A DNA stretch of 64,000 bases from Candidatus Saccharimonadota bacterium (lineage in GTDB: Bacteria; Patescibacteriota; Saccharimonadia; Saccharimonadales; Saccharimonadaceae), in contig JAECRG010000001.1 in NCBI GenBank assembly GCA_015999875.1, forward strand, positions 1 to 64,000. Direction: 5' to 3'. The position numbers and the translations under genes were made by a program. Below the pieces are notes generated by a model. The model was not told the DNA's origin. It did no database searches and saw only the letters and a program-made list of their open reading frames with translations. This document shows, piece after piece, positions 423-51,497 of this stretch; the first letter of the stretch is position 1, and each line of letters starts with the position of its first letter.

Positions 423-1718
423 TCATTGACCTCTGGATGCTCTAAGGGCATGTTCGAAAGACGCTACCCTTTTTTCGGCATAAGATTTCGCGTCAAAACT
501 TTCATTTATGAGGCTCGCGAGTAGCGGAGATCCAATCATTTTACGCATCAGACGTTCTGACTTTGAGAGTTGTTTTTCTGCGGCATTAGTCGCCTTTGCC
601 AGCGTTTCGTCATGATTAATATTTCCAATGGCGCCTCTCAGCCTCGCAGCTGTTAAGATTGGATCAATCGCACCTGGTAACCAACGTTCGCGTATGTCAC
701 TGTCGAGACTGCCAAGAATTATATCTTCGGCTCGTTCTCGCGAAATATCGGGTGGCAACGTGTTACGGCATGTATCATCCGACCCAAATGAGTCAGTCGT
801 CCAGATTTCGGATGTGTCATGTTCATGTAGTCGGTCAATATAGCGTCGTGGTGAGGTATATAGCTGGGCCCCACTCAAGTATGGGCGATAGTAGTTGGTG
901 TAAAGTCGTGCGGTTTCATGCGTGATGGCGTTTGCATCGAATCCCCCATTGTGTGCGTATCTACTAAATGGAATCACTAGACCTGCCTCGTAGCCTATAC
1001 GGCCAGGAGCTTGGAAGCAAGTGTTATCGACCCACGTCGTTACCTTGGCTGTATTTGGATGGGATGACAGTCTGGCATGAGTGACTCTTGTCGCGACTGA
1101 ACTATGTACGGCTGTGTTCGCGAGTGAGTCACCAAATAGATTTTGGTATCTTGCGGTTCGCTGCTCGTAGTGCTGTTGAATACGTGATATGTAATGTGGA
1201 CTAATGGAGTGTGTATCGATGTCGTTGTTAACTCCAGTGACATCATCTGAAAATCCATGTTCGTAATGTGCGAGTAAAAATGCAGCATTCCATAGATCTC
1301 TGCGGATTAGCCCAATAGTCGGCTCATCGTATAGCGTTGTCGATGAGCGCACGTCCAGCCGAGGAAATGCTTCACGAGCTTGATCGACGATCGCTTCGGC
1401 TTCTGTAGCCTTGCTGTTTGCATCTATAGCATCTAGTGGTGCATTGAGCGAAAGAAAGACTGTAAACGGACTCGTTGTTTTTTGCTTTGCATACTCACCA
1501 AGTGTGGGAAATATATAGGGGTTATCTTGGTGGGCTGCAACCGGGATAAGTACCGCCGTTTTGGCAGCTGGTCTATCCTTATCTTCAAATGCAGTAGCCA
1601 TGTCGATGGCGGCTTCACGGTCTCGTTGAGTCATCTCTTCACTAATAAAAAGGCTAGCCCGCTCTCTATGTGTTGGAGCATGATTGATGTATGAATTTAA
1701 AGATGGTATTTCTGGCAT
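423..1718 (-). CDS. Putative GT-A-fold glycosyltransferase (family 2-like)
   Basis: 431 residues. An N-terminal beta-strand motif AVLIPVAAHQDN (residues 55-66), the segment IGLIRRDLWNAAF and an acidic NNDID motif (164-168) in the place of the GT-A DxD suggest a nucleotide-sugar-dependent glycosyltransferase. No membrane segment or signal peptide is visible. The start at 1718 is preferred over an in-frame ATG at 1739 because the latter lies inside the -10 box: TGG-TATAAT (-10 at 1728-1733 on this strand) ends 9 nt before ATG 1718, giving a nearly leaderless mRNA. Lies inside the stretch bracketed by the tRNA-Glu repeat. The family is inferred from motifs only, and acceptor and donor are unknown. 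Confidence 0.55.
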   Translation of the reverse strand: MPEIPSLNSYINHAPTHRERASLFISEEMTQRDREAAIDMATAFEDKDRPAAKTAVLIPVAAHQDNPYIFPTLGEYAKQKTTSPFTVFLSLNAPLDAIDANSKATEAEAIVDQAREAFPRLDVRSSTTLYDEPTIGLIRRDLWNAAFLLAHYEHGFSDDVTGVNNDIDTHSISPHYISRIQQHYEQRTARYQNLFGDSLANTAVHSSVATRVTHARLSSHPNTAKVTTWVDNTCFQAPGRIGYEAGLVIPFSRYAHNGGFDANAITHETARLYTNYYRPYLSGAQLYTSPRRYIDRLHEHDTSEIWTTDSFGSDDTCRNTLPPDISRERAEDIILGSLDSDIRERWLPGAIDPILTAARLRGAIGNINHDETLAKATNAAEKQLSKSERLMRKMIGSPLLASLINESFDAKSYAEKRVASFEHALRASRGQ

Positions 1719-33607: not shown

Positions 33608-35056
33608 ATGATCGTTTCCAGGCTCAAAGCTGCTATCGCCGCCGCGATTGCAGTCGCAATCTACGCGATTTGCATCGGCATGTCGCTTGCCACAGCAGCG
33701 GCCACAACCCTACCGCCCAGTGCGCAGACCCTGACCCAGTCAGGTGTCGTCTACAATGATACGCGTCCAGCAACCACAACCGACTATTTGTCGGGAGTGC
33801 CTGCTGGTACTATCATGGTCATCACACCGGGCACCGACGACACGACGCTTCGTCCCCGTATCAACACTTATGTGTCGGACAGGGACACGCTCGTGGTCAA
33901 CTATCCACAGTCCGCTGGTCCGGTAATCGCGGGTCAGTCGGGTAAGCCTCTCGTGTTTGCTCCGACCTATGACAAATCAAAGGAGAAAGCAGTTCAGGGA
34001 AACCTGACCGTCATGGAAGCCTTCAAAAACGATCCGAACGTGACGTACGCAGTCTACAATGGCTACAGCCAGGGGGCTGACGCTCTCGGTGACGCTGTTG
34101 AGCGTGCCGTCAAAAATGGCACGATCGACCCCACGAAGTCGCTCATCGTCCTGACAAGCGACCCCCGAGGACCTTGGGGTCTCAAGCAGGCCTTCGAGAA
34201 CAATCCCATCGTGGAGCCGTTTGGCACGCTGTTCGGCGCGTCGATCAATGGTGCTCGAGATCCGGGTAAAACCGGTGACGTCGAGATCCGCCAGATCATC
34301 GTGACTGCAGACCCCGTCGCCAACTGGCAGTGGGTTTGGTACAGGCCATTGGCCAGTATCCAGGTGAACTTGGCCGGCTTCACGTACTGCCACTCCGTTG
34401 CTTCGTGCTACGGAGATCTCGAGCAGTACGGCACGCCGGAGACCTTCAAGTCCGTCGACGGGAACACCACCTACGTGGTGTACAAATCTCTCCATCCGCT
34501 CACCTTGGAGAAAATCGCCAAGGCCAAGGCCAGAGGGAACACCCCGACACAGGCGCAGGTCGACGAGTGGGAACGTGAGTCGCAAGCTTACTTCCCTATG
34601 TCCCTTCCGTCGGTATCGAATTCAGCGGTTCCAGTCACAAAGGTGACTACGCCGCCGGATAGTACCACATCGTTCGTGCCAGCTGCACAGCCAGTGGAAG
34701 CAGATGCGCGGGTGGCCCAGATACCTCTGGTGACCCCAGAATTGTCCGAGCCTGTCATGCAGATATCCGCTCCGGTGGAAGAGGTACCTGTGCGACAGCC
34801 CACGACTGATTCGTACGACGACACATCGACGGAAGCACCGAGCAGCCCGTCTCCGGCAACCCCGGAGCCGATTGCACCGGTCGCATCCGAGCCGGCAATT
34901 GTCTCGGTAGAAACACCGAAGCAAGAGCTTGCCGAGGTGAGTGAGCCGACCAAGTCGTCAGACAAGAGTTCAACGACCTCGACGGAAGCACCGAGTAGCC
35001 CGTCTCCGGCAACCCCGGAGAAGTCTGCACCCACATCGGACACTGAGTCCGACTGA
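33608..35056 (+). CDS. Secreted PE-PPE/cutinase-like serine hydrolase with P/S/T-rich tail
   Basis: 482 residues. Signal peptide about 1-33 (hydrophobic core AAAIAVAIYAICIGMSLA, ATAAA end). Hydrolase domain: ITPGTDDT (72-79), Ser154 in GYSQGA, TADPVANWQWVW and YVVYKSLHPL. The C-terminal 170 residues are rich in P, S, T and E with a duplicated segment, typical of a cell-surface stalk. Probably an exported esterase acting on host or own envelope lipids (inference). GAAAGAG serves as ribosome site. Confidence 0.82.
   Translation: MIVSRLKAAIAAAIAVAIYAICIGMSLATAAATTLPPSAQTLTQSGVVYNDTRPATTTDYLSGVPAGTIMVITPGTDDTTLRPRINTYVSDRDTLVVNYPQSAGPVIAGQSGKPLVFAPTYDKSKEKAVQGNLTVMEAFKNDPNVTYAVYNGYSQGADALGDAVERAVKNGTIDPTKSLIVLTSDPRGPWGLKQAFENNPIVEPFGTLFGASINGARDPGKTGDVEIRQIIVTADPVANWQWVWYRPLASIQVNLAGFTYCHSVASCYGDLEQYGTPETFKSVDGNTTYVVYKSLHPLTLEKIAKAKARGNTPTQAQVDEWERESQAYFPMSLPSVSNSAVPVTKVTTPPDSTTSFVPAAQPVEADARVAQIPLVTPELSEPVMQISAPVEEVPVRQPTTDSYDDTSTEAPSSPSPATPEPIAPVASEPAIVSVETPKQELAEVSEPTKSSDKSSTTSTEAPSSPSPATPEKSAPTSDTESD
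34826..35020 (+). repeat. Intragenic direct repeat, 42 nt
   Basis: 34826-34867 and 34979-35020 are identical at 41 of 42 bases and encode the peptide STEAPSSPSPATPE twice in the P/S/T-rich tail of the secreted hydrolase. The near identity points to recent duplication or slippage, a way to vary stalk length. Confidence 0.92.
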
Positions 35057-45171: not shown

Positions 45172-45311
45172 CAAAAGCTCCTTAGATGTGGGGGTTCAAC
45201 TCACGTATGAGTTATGTGGCACGATACCACATACTATATATTATAGCATAAGTTGTATGAAAAGTCTATACTACTTTACAAACATGCAAATGTTGCTAGA
45301 ATCAAACAGTG

Positions 45312-46214
45312 ATGAATGATATAACTCAGCAGAAAAAAATAGAAATTATAGATCTTGGAAAACTTTCGCTTGCCACCTGGCCAGGCTCGGTTGCTGTTAA
45401 AGACGATGCGTATTCTGATGATACGATCATACAGGCGCTCGATGAATACTACGTGCCTGTCGAGGCGCATGCCGCAACGCGCTGTATCGACGGTCGCCAC
45501 GACCCTGCGCTCAACGAATCTCATCTAGGCCCACAGATGCCAGGCGGCGCACCAGGAGCGGCACTCGCCTATCGTTTGGGCGTAGAGGATAGTGACCTGA
45601 CGCGCGCAACTTTTTTTGATGACGCAGAGTCTATGATTGAAACATTCTTGCGTTTAGATTTATCGCCAGGTGGACATAAAGACGATCAGGCGAGCGAAGG
45701 TCGTGTTGGATGTGGCGCTTTGGATAGCATGGCGGCAATCGTAGGCAATATGACCAACCCGCAGCTAGTGGAAGACCACAAACGGCTTGTCAAAACAATT
45801 CTAGCTGATGACTTTTCGCGTGATGACTATCTTCGTATTATGGGTGCTGCTCTTGTACTGCAGAGTCGATCCGATGAATACTTTAGGGATAATTCCAAGG
45901 TGCTTGATGCACTTGAAGACAAAGCTCCCGGAAGTGTGTCGGTCCTCGAAGGAACTCATGAAGAAGCGTATGTTTTTGTAAACTTTGTCGAAGGCACTAC
46001 CTTCTCGTCAAATCGTTTTGCAGCAAAGTTTGGCGTACAGGCGTTTGGTTACGATATATGGAGATCGAAGCAACTCGCCCATCGTTTGTTTGGAATCTCG
46101 CACTCAGATGCGGCCTATAAGCGTTTCGTGCACGCACGGGTGATGATTACGATTGCAACACTCATGACCCTTACAAACGGCTCACAGCATATCTTTGTTC
46201 GCACTGAGCAGTAA
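45312..46214 (+). CDS. CDCA-like (cadmium-type) carbonic anhydrase domain protein
   Basis: 300 residues. The pattern Cys58-x-Asp60-x-Arg62 (RCIDGRHD), GPQMPGGAPGAAL, His122 (GGHKDD) and GCGA with Cys134 (RVGCGALDSM) corresponds to the Cys-His-Cys metal site of diatom CDCA carbonic anhydrase and, more loosely, of beta-carbonic anhydrases. No signal peptide. Enzyme activity is an inference from the ligand pattern. TTTACA-16-TAGAAT (-10 at 45297-45302) puts transcription at the GTG 45309/ATG 45312, so the message is leaderless. Confidence 0.62.
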   Translation: MNDITQQKKIEIIDLGKLSLATWPGSVAVKDDAYSDDTIIQALDEYYVPVEAHAATRCIDGRHDPALNESHLGPQMPGGAPGAALAYRLGVEDSDLTRATFFDDAESMIETFLRLDLSPGGHKDDQASEGRVGCGALDSMAAIVGNMTNPQLVEDHKRLVKTILADDFSRDDYLRIMGAALVLQSRSDEYFRDNSKVLDALEDKAPGSVSVLEGTHEEAYVFVNFVEGTTFSSNRFAAKFGVQAFGYDIWRSKQLAHRLFGISHSDAAYKRFVHARVMITIATLMTLTNGSQHIFVRTEQ

Positions 46215-46293: not shown

Positions 46294-47244
46294 CTATTCG
46301 GTGAGCTGGTGTAGAGTCGCACGTGCTTCGTCGGTGGACGTGGTGTGCATGAGTTTGTCGCGAAGCTCTGCTGCACCTTCAAAATCGCGGACATATATCT
46401 TGAAGAATCGCTTGAGCGTCTCAAACGGCCGGCCGGTTTGATGGCTATATTCATCGTACAGATCAAGCTGACTCGACAGCAGGCTGAGTAACTCCGCTCG
46501 GCTGTGAGATGCAGGGGTTTTCTCGAATGCATAAGGATTCTGAAAAATACCACGACCTATCATGACGCCATCTACACCTGTTTCTGCTACCAACTCTTCT
46601 CCGTGCGCACGGTCTCGTATGTCACCATTGATTGTGAGGAGTGTATGTGGCGCGATTTCATCGCGTAGCTTCTTGATCTCGCTAATCAATTCGTAGTGAG
46701 CTGGTACCTTGCTCATCTCTTTTTTGGTACGCAGATGAATGGTGAGATTTACGATATCTTGAGAGAGGATGTGAGTGAGCCAGGCCTGCCATTCGTCGAC
46801 ACGACTGTAGCCGAGACGGGTCTTCACGCTCACGGGCAGTCCACTGGTTTTTGCAGCTGCGATGATTGCAGCTGCGTTTTCTGGATTGCAGATCATACCT
46901 GCTCCTCCGCCACTTTTGGTTGCAGATTTGTCCGGGCAGCCCATGTTTATATCGATTCCATCGTAGCCAAGCTCTGCGCAGTGCGCAGAGAGTTTCTCCA
47001 TGGCTTCGGGGTTACTTCCCCAGAGCTGAGCTACTATCGTGCGCTCGTCGTCTGTTTTGATGAGTCGTCCACCGATAGCTCGTTCACCTGCGGCTGCCCA
47101 GCCGGTGGCGTTGGTAAACTCGGTAAACCATACGTCTGGCGCTGAGGCTTGGGCCACTACGTGACGAAATACAACGTCAGTGACAGCCTCCATAGGGGCA
47201 AGTACATAGAATGGTTTTGGTAGATCCACCCAAAAGTTTCGCAT
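46294..47244 (-). CDS. dus: tRNA-dihydrouridine synthase
   Basis: 316 residues. FMN-binding TIM barrel: APMEAVTD near the N-terminus, INMGCPDKSATKSGGGAG with catalytic Cys103, KTRLGY, IHLRTKKE, NGDI and VMIGRGIFQNP. Reduces uridines in tRNA D-loops using NADPH. The start codon overlaps the stop of the 47244-47411 gene by one base (TAATG). It sits next to the odd tRNA operon. Confidence 0.96.
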   Translation of the reverse strand: MRNFWVDLPKPFYVLAPMEAVTDVVFRHVVAQASAPDVWFTEFTNATGWAAAGERAIGGRLIKTDDERTIVAQLWGSNPEAMEKLSAHCAELGYDGIDINMGCPDKSATKSGGGAGMICNPENAAAIIAAAKTSGLPVSVKTRLGYSRVDEWQAWLTHILSQDIVNLTIHLRTKKEMSKVPAHYELISEIKKLRDEIAPHTLLTINGDIRDRAHGEELVAETGVDGVMIGRGIFQNPYAFEKTPASHSRAELLSLLSSQLDLYDEYSHQTGRPFETLKRFFKIYVRDFEGAAELRDKLMHTTSTDEARATLHQLTE

Positions 47245-47411
47245 TAGCTCTGCTGGCGACGCTTTTCATTTATGTTTTGCATTGCTTCATTTTGCCTTGC
47301 GATGGTAAGAGCGCTAATCTGGCCTAGTCCGCGGACAGCTTCTTCGTTCGGAGAATCATCATCTTCCCGGAGTGTCTCGATATGATTAAATGATCGTTCA
47401 GTATTTGGCAT
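47244..47411 (-). CDS. Small protein translationally coupled to dus, 55 aa
   Basis: ATG 47411 with AAAGGA 8 nt upstream; product is charged and helical (NTERSFNHIETLREDDD at the start, RQNEAMQNINEKRRQQS at the end). The stop TAA shares its last base with the dus start. No family recognised. A coupling or partner role for Dus, or an RNA-binding peptide, is possible. Confidence 0.65.
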   Translation of the reverse strand: MPNTERSFNHIETLREDDDSPNEEAVRGLGQISALTIARQNEAMQNINEKRRQQS

Positions 47412-47503
47412 ACGCGTTCCTTTCAGCTAACAAAACTCACATTGGTATCGAATATGAGTATTGGTAGATGCAGACAGAAATAGCATCTAGTGGTGTTGGC
47501 AGA

Positions 47504-47540
47504 GTGCCCCCCGTCGTGATCATTTTATGACGAGGGGCAC
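47504..47540 (-). terminator. Terminator of the stable-RNA operon
   Basis: GTGCCCC-CGTC pairs with GACG-GGGGCAC (12 bp, one mismatch), 4 nt after the discriminator base of tRNA-like gene 1; loop rich in A/T. Confidence 0.75.
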
Positions 47541-47544
47541 TCAG

Positions 47545-47645
47545 TGACGATGACGGGGTTCGAACCCGCGACCTTTCTACGCGAATGTGTGCATGCTGCA
47601 GACATGTACGTATTCAGAATGCTCTACCAGCTGAGCTACATCGCC
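47545..47645 (-). tRNA. tRNA-like gene 1 with 35-nt anticodon loop (intron, insertion or pseudogene)
   Basis: Acceptor GGCGATG pairs with CATCGTC (one G-U), TA, D arm GCTC-AGCTGGTA-GAGC, T arm GCGGG-TTCGAAC-CCCGT, variable AGGTC and discriminator A; CCA is not encoded. The anticodon stem is TTCTG/TAGAA but encloses 35 nt instead of 7. The insert folds further (GAAT/ATTC, then GTACATG with CATGCAC, one mismatch) to a 7-base terminal loop TCTGCAG. Removing 28 nt would restore a normal loop, but the anticodon cannot be assigned (GCA or TGC if the terminal loop serves). Too short for a group I intron. Confidence 0.7.
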
Positions 47646-47681: not shown

Positions 47682-47834
47682 CTACTGGGAGTGGCCACAT
47701 GAAGGACAGCGGTAACCGCTACGATTCATGCTTTCACTGATATAGAACTCCTGACCGCACCTGTTATTGTTGCAGGTGCGCTTGACGTTTGTGTTGCCGG
47801 ATTGTGACGCGGAACCCTTTGAAGTGAAAGCCAT
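47682..47834 (-). CDS. Zinc-ribbon microprotein, 50 aa, between two tRNA-like genes
   Basis: ATG 47834 with GAAAGAAAGG upstream (spacing 6). The N-terminal 20 residues are polar and probably disordered; then CNNNRCGQEFYISES and YRCPSCGHSQ give a Cys-x4-Cys ... Cys-x2-Cys zinc-ribbon ending at the C-terminus. Zinc ribbons of this size bind RNA, ribosomes or act as subunits of larger enzymes. It is in one transcription unit with the flanking tRNA-like genes (same strand, no terminator between). No family recognised. Confidence 0.72.
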   Translation of the reverse strand: MAFTSKGSASQSGNTNVKRTCNNNRCGQEFYISESMNRSGYRCPSCGHSQ

Positions 47835-47876: not shown

Positions 47877-47950
47877 AGAGCGTGACGGGAATCGAACCCG
47901 CGAGTCACCGGGATTTTACGCCGGTTGCTTGCCTCTCAGCTTACACGCTC
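47877..47950 (-). tRNA. tRNA-like gene 2 with 9-nt anticodon loop
   Basis: Acceptor GAGCGTG/CACGCTC pairs perfectly; D arm has only 3 bp (GCT/AGC) around GAGAGGCA; anticodon stem ACCGG/CCGGT is perfect but encloses nine bases CGTAAAATC (a 7-base GTAAAAT loop would need a C-C mismatch); T arm GCGGG-TTCGATT-CCCGT. Discriminator T, CCA not encoded. If U33 is the T, the anticodon reads AAA, which bacteria practically never use. So either a non-canonical tRNA, a tRNA mimic or a decaying gene. Confidence 0.68.
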
Positions 47951-48010: not shown

Positions 48011-48171
48011 TGCCGAGTACACCCCAAGATCCACGCTTTTAGCGTTCGTCATCAAGTTGCACCCTAGATATGCTATTTCTGTCTGTAAAGTTGCGACAGC
48101 AATGCATGGCAAAAAATTTACGAATATCTACCTCATAAACTCATTGCCACACACACTTCTGCGCGAGTACT

Positions 48172-48200
48172 ATGATAGGGCATTTATTGCAACGTGTCAA
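48172..48200 (-). promoter_or_regulatory. Promoter of the stable-RNA operon
   Basis: Leftward TTGACA (48200-48195), 17-bp spacer, TATCAT (48177-48172). Start near 48165; it lies outside the inverted repeats, and the leader before the hairpin is about 150 nt with no ORF I can support. Confidence 0.75.
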
Positions 48201-48212
48201 TAGCCTGCGCGA

Positions 48213-51200
48213 CTAGATAACACCCTCTAGTAGATCGTCTTCAAATTGCTTGATGCCTGCAAGTGATTGCTCGTACTCGGATGTGTCCGGGAAGTTTAGT
48301 TCTTGGATGTGCTGCCACACGGCTTTGATGAGTAGCCTAAATCTATTAAGCTCTTCGCTTGCGATATCTTCTAGCTGTAGATCAACTATGTGTCCGGCTG
48401 CATTTGGCTCTACGAACTGCAGTACGCCTCTCGTCATGGTGTAGCGTTGCCATTCGCGGGAGTGTTCGATAAGAAGCTTGTAAAAAAGTAATTGCTGACG
48501 ATATTTGTGTGCTTTTACTCTCTGGTAATCTTGCCCTCTGTCCCAGCTAGTCAGTACGCCGCCAGTTTTGTAATCTGTCACAGTGACTGTCATGGCGTCG
48601 CGATCAAATTCAACCACATCAAGCTTACCTGTCAGATGCACTTCGTCAAGCCAGACATCTTGATGTTTGAAATCAAGCTCAGCCTGCTGCTCTGGAGAAA
48701 ACTGGGAGTATTTTGCAGCCAGAAATGTTCGTAACGCCGCGCCGCCTTTCTGGAGGTACTGTATACGCTCTTCGTCTGTAAATTGCATGCGGTCGAGTGA
48801 TTTCTCAAATTCGTGCAATATATCTTCTTCTGGTTGTGGCGATTTGTGAGCGCGCAAGTAGTCGTGGGCTCGTTGCAGCGTAGCATGCACGGCAGTACCG
48901 TAGTTGGCATGAGGGCTTGGACTTGATGGGAATCGTAACAAGCTGCCGAGCAAGAAACTCTGCGGTCCACCATGTGTCACGTCGATGAATGTGTTTACAT
49001 GTGTGGCACTGAGCTTATAGCGAAATAACAACGGAGCCAAGTAGTCGTGCATAGTACTTGTCGGTATAGAGACAATCGGTGCATACCAAGTCTGTGTAGC
49101 TGCTTGAAGGTGTGAGCTGTGCGCATGGGGATCTGTAATTGTCAGTACCGGTAGTGAGCTTGCCACCAAGAATCCAGCACGGAGCATCTCCTTGGCATTG
49201 TCGTTTTCGCGTGAGTATGAGATATGAAGTGTGTGACGTGCACGTGTCATTGCGACATAGAAAAGCCGCAGACGTTCGTCGTAAGTGCCCGCATTGCGAC
49301 TCAGTCGAAGATTTGGCGGAAAAGAGATGCTATCGGATCTTCCGCGGGCTTTCTCTCCCCACATTGCATCGGTGGCGTTTACTATAAACACATGGTCAAA
49401 CTCTAGGCCTTTTGAGCTATGGGCCGACAGCAGCTGTACTGCGCTACTATCTTGGCCGACGTGCCGCAAGCTCGTGATGCGGGTGTCGGTATCACGATTT
49501 TGCTGTATGAATCCTAGAAACTCCGCTAGGCGTGGTGTCGTCATGTCTACTTCATGCTCACGAAGCTTTGCGCGTATCGCAGTGAGGTTTTCGAGATGCA
49601 TGATATAACGAGATGCATCTTTTTCGAGTTCACTCGCGGGAAAGAAGTATTCGCGTAGAGGTGATGTGTAGTCAGCGCCTAGTGTAGTCGTACCGAGCAG
49701 TGTGTCAATCATGCGTTCGAGTGGCATGTGCTCTGCTTCTTTGGCGCACGCTTGGAGCCATGTCCAAAACTCCCCCATCGCTTCGTGATGTTGCATCACT
49801 TCAAGCCATGACTGATGGGTATTGCTAGCCTTGAGGCTGATTTCCCATAGCGTGGTGGGCGAAATATTCCACGCAGGGTGGCTTAATAGTTCTGGTAAAA
49901 GTGCATTTGCTTCTGAGTGATCACCGCCCGCCAATGCTACGACGATATTGCCAATGCGCTCGAGCTGTAGTACGGCTTCGTCGTCTAGTACATTATCGCG
50001 CCTATCATAGCTGATAGGAACTTCTTTGTCGGCTAAGTAGCCGAGCAGCGCGACGAGGTCTTTGTGTTGGCGAGATATTACGGCGATGGATTCTGCTGCT
50101 ACACCAGATTCGACAAGTGATTTGATCTCATGTGCAACCCATGCACGTTCCGCATCGGGTGTCAGGAGTTCGATGATCTCTGTTTTCGCTGCCTCTGTCT
50201 CCGCGTGAGGGGTTAATGTTTTGTCGACATCAGGTAGGATATTTTCAAGCCTCTCGCTGGCTTGTACGATCACTTCCCTTGCACCGGTAAGCACTGGTGC
50301 AACACTACGGTAATTGTCTCGCAGTGTAATACGCCTGACCCCTGGGTATAGTTGGTTGAATTTGATGATGTTGCCCACCTCAGCACCCTGAAAACCATAA
50401 ATAGCTTGATCGTCGTCGCCTACAACCAATATGTTTGGCGCGTCTTCGACGACAGGGTTGTTTGTGAGATTTCGGAGTATACGCATCTGAGCCAAGTTGG
50501 TGTCCTGGAATTCATCTACCATGATGTAGTGATATTTCTCTTGCAGCTCATAGCGAAGGTCGGGATTCACCTCTATGGCATGCACGACTTGCATGATCAT
50601 ATCATCAAAATCTATAAGCTCCGCCGCTTGCATGATCGCAAGGTATTGACTGTATATATGAGCAAGTGAGCGCAGTTTTGGCTGATACTTTGCAACTTTT
50701 AAAATTGGACGGCGCTCGGCGTCGATAGTAACCCACTCTTTTTTCCAGGCCGTGAGAGGTGGTGTGACTTTCGGATGAGCATCTGCTTCATCTATTGCAT
50801 GTTGCAGGCTGTTTGAGAGTACTTCAGACAATGGCTGTAATGTGTCGAGCGGCATTTTCTCACGTACGCTTGCTATCTTCGGCACTATGTCGGCAAGCTT
50901 ATCTCGGGTGGTTTTGCTGATTCGGTCTGAAAACACGTCAGTGATAAGCGCCCCAGCGATATCAAGCGCTTCGTCTGTCGCATCGAGTAACGCACTAAAC
51001 TCAGCATCTGTCAGGCTGGCGCGTTTAAGGTCTGAAATAGCCTTGATGATGTCGCCTATCGCGGTATAGCTACCATTCATTTTGCTACGCAGGGGGTTGT
51101 CATACGGTAGATCGTCCAAGATACTCGTGACGATTCGATGTATTGATAGCTGGTCGGCAGGGCGAAATTCCGCGCCCCGGAAAAAGTATTCGCGGTAGCG

Positions 51201-51497
51201 GCTCATAATCTCCGTGCCAAACGCATGGAATGTGTAGATGGATACATTGTAAGCGTCGCGCCCTATGATGCTTGTGAGGCGTTTCTGCATTGCCACGGAG
51301 CCACTTTCTGTAAACGTGAGGCACAAGATATTTTCTGGTAGCTCATCTGTCTTACGAAGTATATTTGCAGCTCGCATACTAAGTAACTCTGTCTTGCCGG
51401 TACCTGGTCCAGCCACGACCATTACTGGTCCGTCAATCGTGTCGACCGCCTTGCGTTGAGCTTCATTGAGGTTTTGGTAGCGAGTGGTAAAATCCAT
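48213..51497 (-). CDS. UvrD/Rep-family helicase with RecB/Cas4-like nuclease domain
   Basis: 1094 residues. SF1A helicase: GPGTGKTELLS (30-40), VDEFQDTN, VGDDDQAIYGFQGAE, VMTRARHTLHISYSRE; QLLSAHSSKGLEFDHVF is motif V-like. The last about 250 residues form a PD-(D/E)XK nuclease with ELDFKH, GKLDVVEFD and TVTDYKTGG (D...E-x-K type). Architecture as in AddA-like or ReqJ-type recombination enzymes: processes double-strand ends. TGC-TATACT ends 7 nt before the ATG, leaderless. Confidence 0.93.
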   Translation of the reverse strand: MDFTTRYQNLNEAQRKAVDTIDGPVMVVAGPGTGKTELLSMRAANILRKTDELPENILCLTFTESGSVAMQKRLTSIIGRDAYNVSIYTFHAFGTEIMSRYREYFFRGAEFRPADQLSIHRIVTSILDDLPYDNPLRSKMNGSYTAIGDIIKAISDLKRASLTDAEFSALLDATDEALDIAGALITDVFSDRISKTTRDKLADIVPKIASVREKMPLDTLQPLSEVLSNSLQHAIDEADAHPKVTPPLTAWKKEWVTIDAERRPILKVAKYQPKLRSLAHIYSQYLAIMQAAELIDFDDMIMQVVHAIEVNPDLRYELQEKYHYIMVDEFQDTNLAQMRILRNLTNNPVVEDAPNILVVGDDDQAIYGFQGAEVGNIIKFNQLYPGVRRITLRDNYRSVAPVLTGAREVIVQASERLENILPDVDKTLTPHAETEAAKTEIIELLTPDAERAWVAHEIKSLVESGVAAESIAVISRQHKDLVALLGYLADKEVPISYDRRDNVLDDEAVLQLERIGNIVVALAGGDHSEANALLPELLSHPAWNISPTTLWEISLKASNTHQSWLEVMQHHEAMGEFWTWLQACAKEAEHMPLERMIDTLLGTTTLGADYTSPLREYFFPASELEKDASRYIMHLENLTAIRAKLREHEVDMTTPRLAEFLGFIQQNRDTDTRITSLRHVGQDSSAVQLLSAHSSKGLEFDHVFIVNATDAMWGEKARGRSDSISFPPNLRLSRNAGTYDERLRLFYVAMTRARHTLHISYSRENDNAKEMLRAGFLVASSLPVLTITDPHAHSSHLQAATQTWYAPIVSIPTSTMHDYLAPLLFRYKLSATHVNTFIDVTHGGPQSFLLGSLLRFPSSPSPHANYGTAVHATLQRAHDYLRAHKSPQPEEDILHEFEKSLDRMQFTDEERIQYLQKGGAALRTFLAAKYSQFSPEQQAELDFKHQDVWLDEVHLTGKLDVVEFDRDAMTVTVTDYKTGGVLTSWDRGQDYQRVKAHKYRQQLLFYKLLIEHSREWQRYTMTRGVLQFVEPNAAGHIVDLQLEDIASEELNRFRLLIKAVWQHIQELNFPDTSEYEQSLAGIKQFEDDLLEGVI

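Follow-up and report, generated by a model that had tools for sequence, protein, structure and literature searches.

Organization of the helicase-dus interval

The window considered here, the whole analyzed stretch of 64,000 nucleotides, belongs to a Saccharibacteria genome of 1.04 Mb (3 contigs, 98.6% complete). On its reverse strand, two syntenic anchors delimit the locus of interest: a gene encoding a UvrD-like helicase with a C-terminal PD-(D/E)XK nuclease (48213..51497) and dus, which encodes a tRNA-dihydrouridine synthase (PF01207; 46294..47244). All features described between them lie on the same strand. A promoter-like site, TTGACA-17-TATCAT, agrees with the consensus at 11 of 12 positions and is found just past the helicase gene (48172..48200), before the left arm CAGACAGAAATAGCAT (48070..48085) of a terminal stem. 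The right arm ATGCTATTTCTGTCTG (47471..47486) is the perfect complement of the left, and the resulting stem, 14-16 bp long, closes the unit. Within it, we observed two tRNA-like modules separated by a small open reading frame (smORF). Module A (47877..47950), about 230 nt upstream of module B, is a weak tRNA match (37.4 bits) that ARAGORN reads as Phe-AAA; its anticodon arm has a 5-bp stem and a 9-nt loop, and CCA is absent. The smORF (47682..47834) encodes a 50-aa, zinc-ribbon-like product (CxxxxC and CPxC), with a homologue of 47% identity at the same place in the same-genus genome G002. Module B (47545..47645) is directly followed on its 3' side by a strong 14-bp hairpin (47502..47542; z-score -5.8).

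Another hairpin comes directly after the right arm (47424..47470). It carries no U run in this genus and leads into a 55-aa smORF outside the stem (47244..47411), whose stop codon overlaps the start of dus (TAATG), so that read-through into dus is possible. Most other genera have a U-tailed terminator hairpin in this position. Together with its counterparts in relatives, the 55-aa ORF makes up a small conserved family. None of the smORFs matches a Pfam family above cut-off, and their PHROG matches are all weak.

Elsewhere in the window, on the forward strand, a protein encoded at 32448-33395 matches the PE-PPE domain above the Pfam cut-off, and its neighbor at 33608-35056 appears similar by eye with no Pfam match; the PE-PPE domain is best known from mycobacteria. 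A further forward-strand gene (45309-46214) matches the cadmium carbonic anhydrase repeat (CDCA, PF18484), a family known mainly from diatoms.

Module B and the intron question

Module B aligns with Rfam family RF00005 over the full model (positions 1-71) at 50.7 bits (E-value 2.2e-9). Its acceptor stem forms 7 of 7 pairs, one of them G.U; the D and T arms are intact as well, in line with the original prediction. A 35-nt loop, AATACGTACATGTCTGCAGCATGCACACATTCGCG, sits on the 5-bp anticodon stem TTCTG/TAGAA. This is 28 nt above the normal 7, exactly the excess first noted, and the 7-nt loop with U33 of a decoding tRNA is thus missing. The loop had also been described as an extended hairpin: a hairpin does form, but its stability is unremarkable (folding z-scores of -1.55 for the anticodon arm and -1.87 for the whole module). 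With default settings ARAGORN misses module B; when introns are allowed, it proposes Ala-CGC with a 30-nt intron, a solution that leaves an anticodon stem of 4 bp.

The original prediction had left a choice between an intron and an expansion of the anticodon arm, and proposed looking for splicing enzymes in the genome. Family searches of the 98.6%-complete host genome found neither RtcB (PF01139) nor a tRNA-splicing endonuclease (PF01974). A group I intron was rejected, as 28 nt is far too short and no Rfam intron matches. Furthermore, removing any 28 nt from the loop never restores a normal one: if U33 is kept, the product is an Arg-UCG loop with C at position 37. Relatives carry loops of fewer than 7 nt at the same locus, such as a GCAA tetraloop (L053) and a 5-nt loop (L044); an intron cannot explain these. 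Moreover, it is module B that has the long loop here (35 nt) and module A in G002 (39 nt), so the loop is not a single inherited insertion. Like archaeal and bacterial tRNA introns, the extra sequence is an insertion in the anticodon loop; unlike them, it is found in a genome devoid of the splicing machinery, and loops of the modules range above and below 7 nt with no conservation of position or sequence. The intron reading is not supported. The arm-expansion half of the original prediction is right, but for a non-decoding module within a larger conserved unit that had escaped notice. In the part of the literature covered, neither tRNA introns nor tRNA-like RNAs turned up for Saccharibacteria or CPR.

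tRNA-like modules in related genomes

Using Dus as an anchor, we retrieved loci from 61 genomes of the family, from two more same-genus genomes and from named Saccharibacteria records. Some genomes may be present in duplicate under different collection names; identical modules were therefore counted once. The locus order is helicase, variable interval, dus. In these Dus-anchored searches, about 25 loci hold one to three tRNA-like genes in the helicase-dus interval, on the dus strand. In L067, L070 and L080 the interval is nearly nil, and dus comes directly after the helicase gene.

Only 9 of 30 distinct modules have a 7-nt anticodon loop, and U33 is present in 4 of these 9. The remaining loops comprise the GCAA tetraloop of L053 and lengths of 5, 8, 9, 10, 35, 39, 64 and 71 nt; some modules also bear inserts in the D-loop (L045, L050). 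Ordinary 7-nt loops combined with decay in orthologues, the opposite case contemplated by the original prediction, are thus not the pattern in relatives, with the proviso that the module finder demanded paired stems and so does not measure decay. From these sequences we conclude that most tRNA-like modules at the helicase-dus locus cannot decode. A few, such as the Pro-CGG-like module of L159, could be real tRNAs.

Two individual cases deserve mention. In G040, where three tRNA-like genes precede dus, one of them (L078, 334-426, reverse strand) scores 43 bits against the selenocysteine tRNA model, whose cut-off is 47 bits. In G026, a 66-nt tRNA-like gene in which a GAAA tetraloop replaces the anticodon loop is located far from dus (L192, about 635-700, reverse strand); no terminal-type stem was found around it.

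The interior of the unit changes rapidly. The order tRNA-like, smORF, tRNA-like within the stem is retained in all four same-genus genomes, while interior identity among them amounts to 0.54-0.64 of length, against 0.53-0.60 for shuffled sequences. The host genome (G000) and G002 share the zinc-ribbon-like smORF, while that of G001 and G003 belongs to another family; other genera have further smORF families. At the position of the 55-aa smORF, ORFs in relatives often end in a PEDLSYSA-like motif (for example, L113 and L125). A C6 loop motif seen by eye was dropped, being no more frequent than in dinucleotide shuffles. A phage origin was likewise set aside: the phage collection contains no match to the 701-bp region, and viral contigs contain no relative of the one searchable smORF family (another family is too variable to search).

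A covarying long-range stem

Complementary arms with the consensus GACAGGAATAGTGC / GCACTATTCCTGTC are found at the ends of about 23 intervals, 220 to 955 nt apart. Across 20 distinct stem sequences, 95.4% of cells form standard pairs, a percentage that leans upward since most intervals were chosen by complementarity. This selection matters less for the double changes, which are seen in 13 of 14 stem pairs against a conserved GACAG frame. The covariation score is 0.557, compared to 0.236 +/- 0.022 for shuffles, of which 0 of 500 reach the observed score. G.U pairs are over-represented among non-Watson-Crick cells (11 of 22, by hand count), which speaks for a stem in RNA rather than an inverted repeat in DNA.

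In the host genome, the exact arms occur as this one pair only. The right-arm motif is present in 14 of 151 genomes, mostly upstream of dus, versus 1 for the reversed pattern. The stem is nevertheless restricted to some loci of the family, and its sequence is unrecognizable in several loci with tRNA-like genes (for example, L045, L050 and L053). Locus L062 of G026 shows two tandem long-range-stem units upstream of dus, with differing arms GACAGGAATAGTGTT and GACAGGTATGATTC.

CCA ends, charging and the tRNA set

The host genome yields 41 tRNA matches, and CCA is encoded in all 39 besides modules A and B; the contrast first noted between the CCA-less module B and other tRNA genes in the window therefore extends to the genome. 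(Contig 1 of the host genome, about 191 kb or 18% of the assembly, has no tRNA match.) Among the 30 distinct modules, CCA is missing in 25 and encoded in 5. The head domain of the CCA-adding enzyme (PF01743) was not found in the host genome, nor in 58 of the 61 family genomes, the single-contig G001 included; the same search detected it in 10 of 10 bacterial control genomes. Established tRNA biology makes a CCA end a prerequisite of aminoacylation. Modules without CCA in a family without the CCA-adding enzyme probably cannot be charged: we consider that the CCA-less modules are probably not aminoacylated, a divergent CCA enzyme being possible.

Nor do the modules fill a gap in the tRNA repertoire. 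The standard set of the host genome is complete except for Ile-GAT and Ala-TGC. These two adjoin each other in the same-genus genome G001, as is usual in rRNA operons, and 16S is absent from the host assembly. Modules A and B are therefore extras.

Comparison with known RNAs

With relaxed E-values, a cmscan of this stretch and of its relatives returned only tRNA, one tmRNA at an unlinked locus and sub-threshold chance matches. Three known systems nonetheless bear comparison. In Bacillus cereus, tRNA-Other is a pseudo-tRNA carried by a longer RNA, whose end RACE mapped to an intrinsic terminator (PMC3399842). The present unit would likewise carry tRNA-like elements outside translation on a larger transcript, and the promoter-like site and the terminal stem are consistent with this. 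However, tRNA-Other is a single element that is nearly identical from strain to strain and has its Trp anticodon intact (PMC3399842), whereas the present unit has at least two modules whose anticodon arms vary and do not decode, together with a covarying stem, smORFs and an extreme turnover.

In YrlA, the 5' and 3' ends pair into a stem that carries a tRNA-mimicking domain, and both Dus and TruB accept the mimic as a substrate (PMC8394870). A terminal stem and a tRNA-like domain, in two modules, are also found here, on a very different scale: YrlA RNAs are 90-150 nt long, have one mimic and bind the Ro-like protein Rsr (PMC8394870), while our unit exceeds 600 nt and combines several complete cloverleaf mimics with ORFs. 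No Rfam Y RNA model matches the unit or its relatives. GOLLD and ROOL, finally, are also large structured RNAs of unknown function; both are often near tRNA islands, and the GOLLD linker region sometimes holds phage tRNAs (PMC12286853). Their covariance models have no match here or in relatives, and the unit differs from them in its fixed chromosomal, non-phage locus, its non-decoding modules and its built-in smORFs.

A candidate modular RNA built on tRNA mimics

Read from sequence comparison, the unit is a framework that is kept while the interior turns over: a promoter-like start, a covarying stem, two tRNA-like modules around a smORF, and hairpins. We assign a probability of about 0.6 to the reading of 47545-47645 as a non-decoding tRNA-like module, one of two in a unit of about 700 nt between the helicase gene and dus. 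The 35-nt loop would then be a hairpin grafted on a freely varying anticodon arm rather than an intron. The unit as a whole is a candidate large modular RNA in which tRNA mimics would act as structural or processing modules. We may hypothesize that the stem closes a large RNA domain and that the mimics, kept for their shape and not for an anticodon or for charging, are neither aminoacylated nor decoding. They could be recognized by tRNA-processing or elbow-binding enzymes such as RNase P, TruB or Dus, which would punctuate, trim or stabilize the transcript around the small ORF. RNase P cuts at the mimics could release the smORF message; alternatively, TruB, Dus or PNPase-type partners may bind the mimics, by analogy with YrlA (PMC8394870).

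Several other explanations have to be weighed. The position of the unit, directly upstream of dus and on the same strand, is what would be expected of a cis-acting leader of the smORF-dus operon, whose tRNA mimics bind Dus or sense the state of tRNA to control expression. The mimics of YrlA are indeed DusA and TruB substrates (PMC8394870), and the lack of a U run in this genus together with the TAATG overlap makes read-through plausible. We still regard a leader as unlikely, given that the stem is followed in most other genera by the U-tailed terminator, a new -10-like site often preceding dus, and that L067, L070 and L080 do without any insert. It is quite unlikely that the module is a decaying tRNA pseudogene or the remnant of a mobile element at an insertion hotspot. 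Huge interior differences between close relatives and the low score of module A could be taken as decay, but module stems are fully paired in unrelated sequences, the tRNA-like genes recur at one locus, on one strand and in a fixed order, and strong covariation marks the enclosing stem. The exact pair of stem arms is unique in the genome, and the interval showed no gene for an integrase or a transposase.

An arms race would also produce fast turnover and anticodon arms that vary while the tRNA body is conserved, and the modules might serve as decoys against anticodon nucleases or further tRNA-targeting toxins, whether from hosts or from competitors. This appears very improbable: most loops depart from 7 nt and present no anticodon, and no toxin or immunity gene is linked among the ORFs seen. 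Hardly any credence can be given to the idea that the module is a genuine tRNA (Ala-CGC or Arg-UCG) from which an unknown mechanism splices the 28-30 nt insertion as an intron. ARAGORN proposes the former and the acceptor, D and T arms are excellent; yet both splicing enzymes are missing, each excision leaves a defect (the 4-bp stem or C37), the sequence has no G3.U70 for an alanine identity, relatives have 4- and 5-nt loops, CCA and CCA enzyme are both lacking, and the tRNA set is complete without module B. The same deficiency of CCA end and CCA-adding enzyme makes a charged, non-ribosomal adaptor for aminoacylation of cell wall or lipids barely conceivable, even though PMC3399842 cites pseudo-tRNAs that act in this way.

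Returning to the modular RNA, we put forward, tentatively and at somewhat less than even odds, that it represents a bacterial RNA gene of a new class: at a fixed locus, a conserved stem framework would enclose an interior of interchangeable smORFs and of tRNA mimics unable to be charged or to decode, which tRNA-processing enzymes would cut or stabilize. If true, this would add a large, fast-evolving RNA to the Saccharibacteria, ultrasmall and host-dependent bacteria in whose reduced genomes a kilobase of fast-changing, non-housekeeping RNA is unexpected. As the CCA-adding enzyme is absent, nature would here provide a clean test of tRNA mimicry with no charging involved. For annotation, tRNA calls with odd anticodons or introns in Saccharibacteria may turn out to be modules of this kind.
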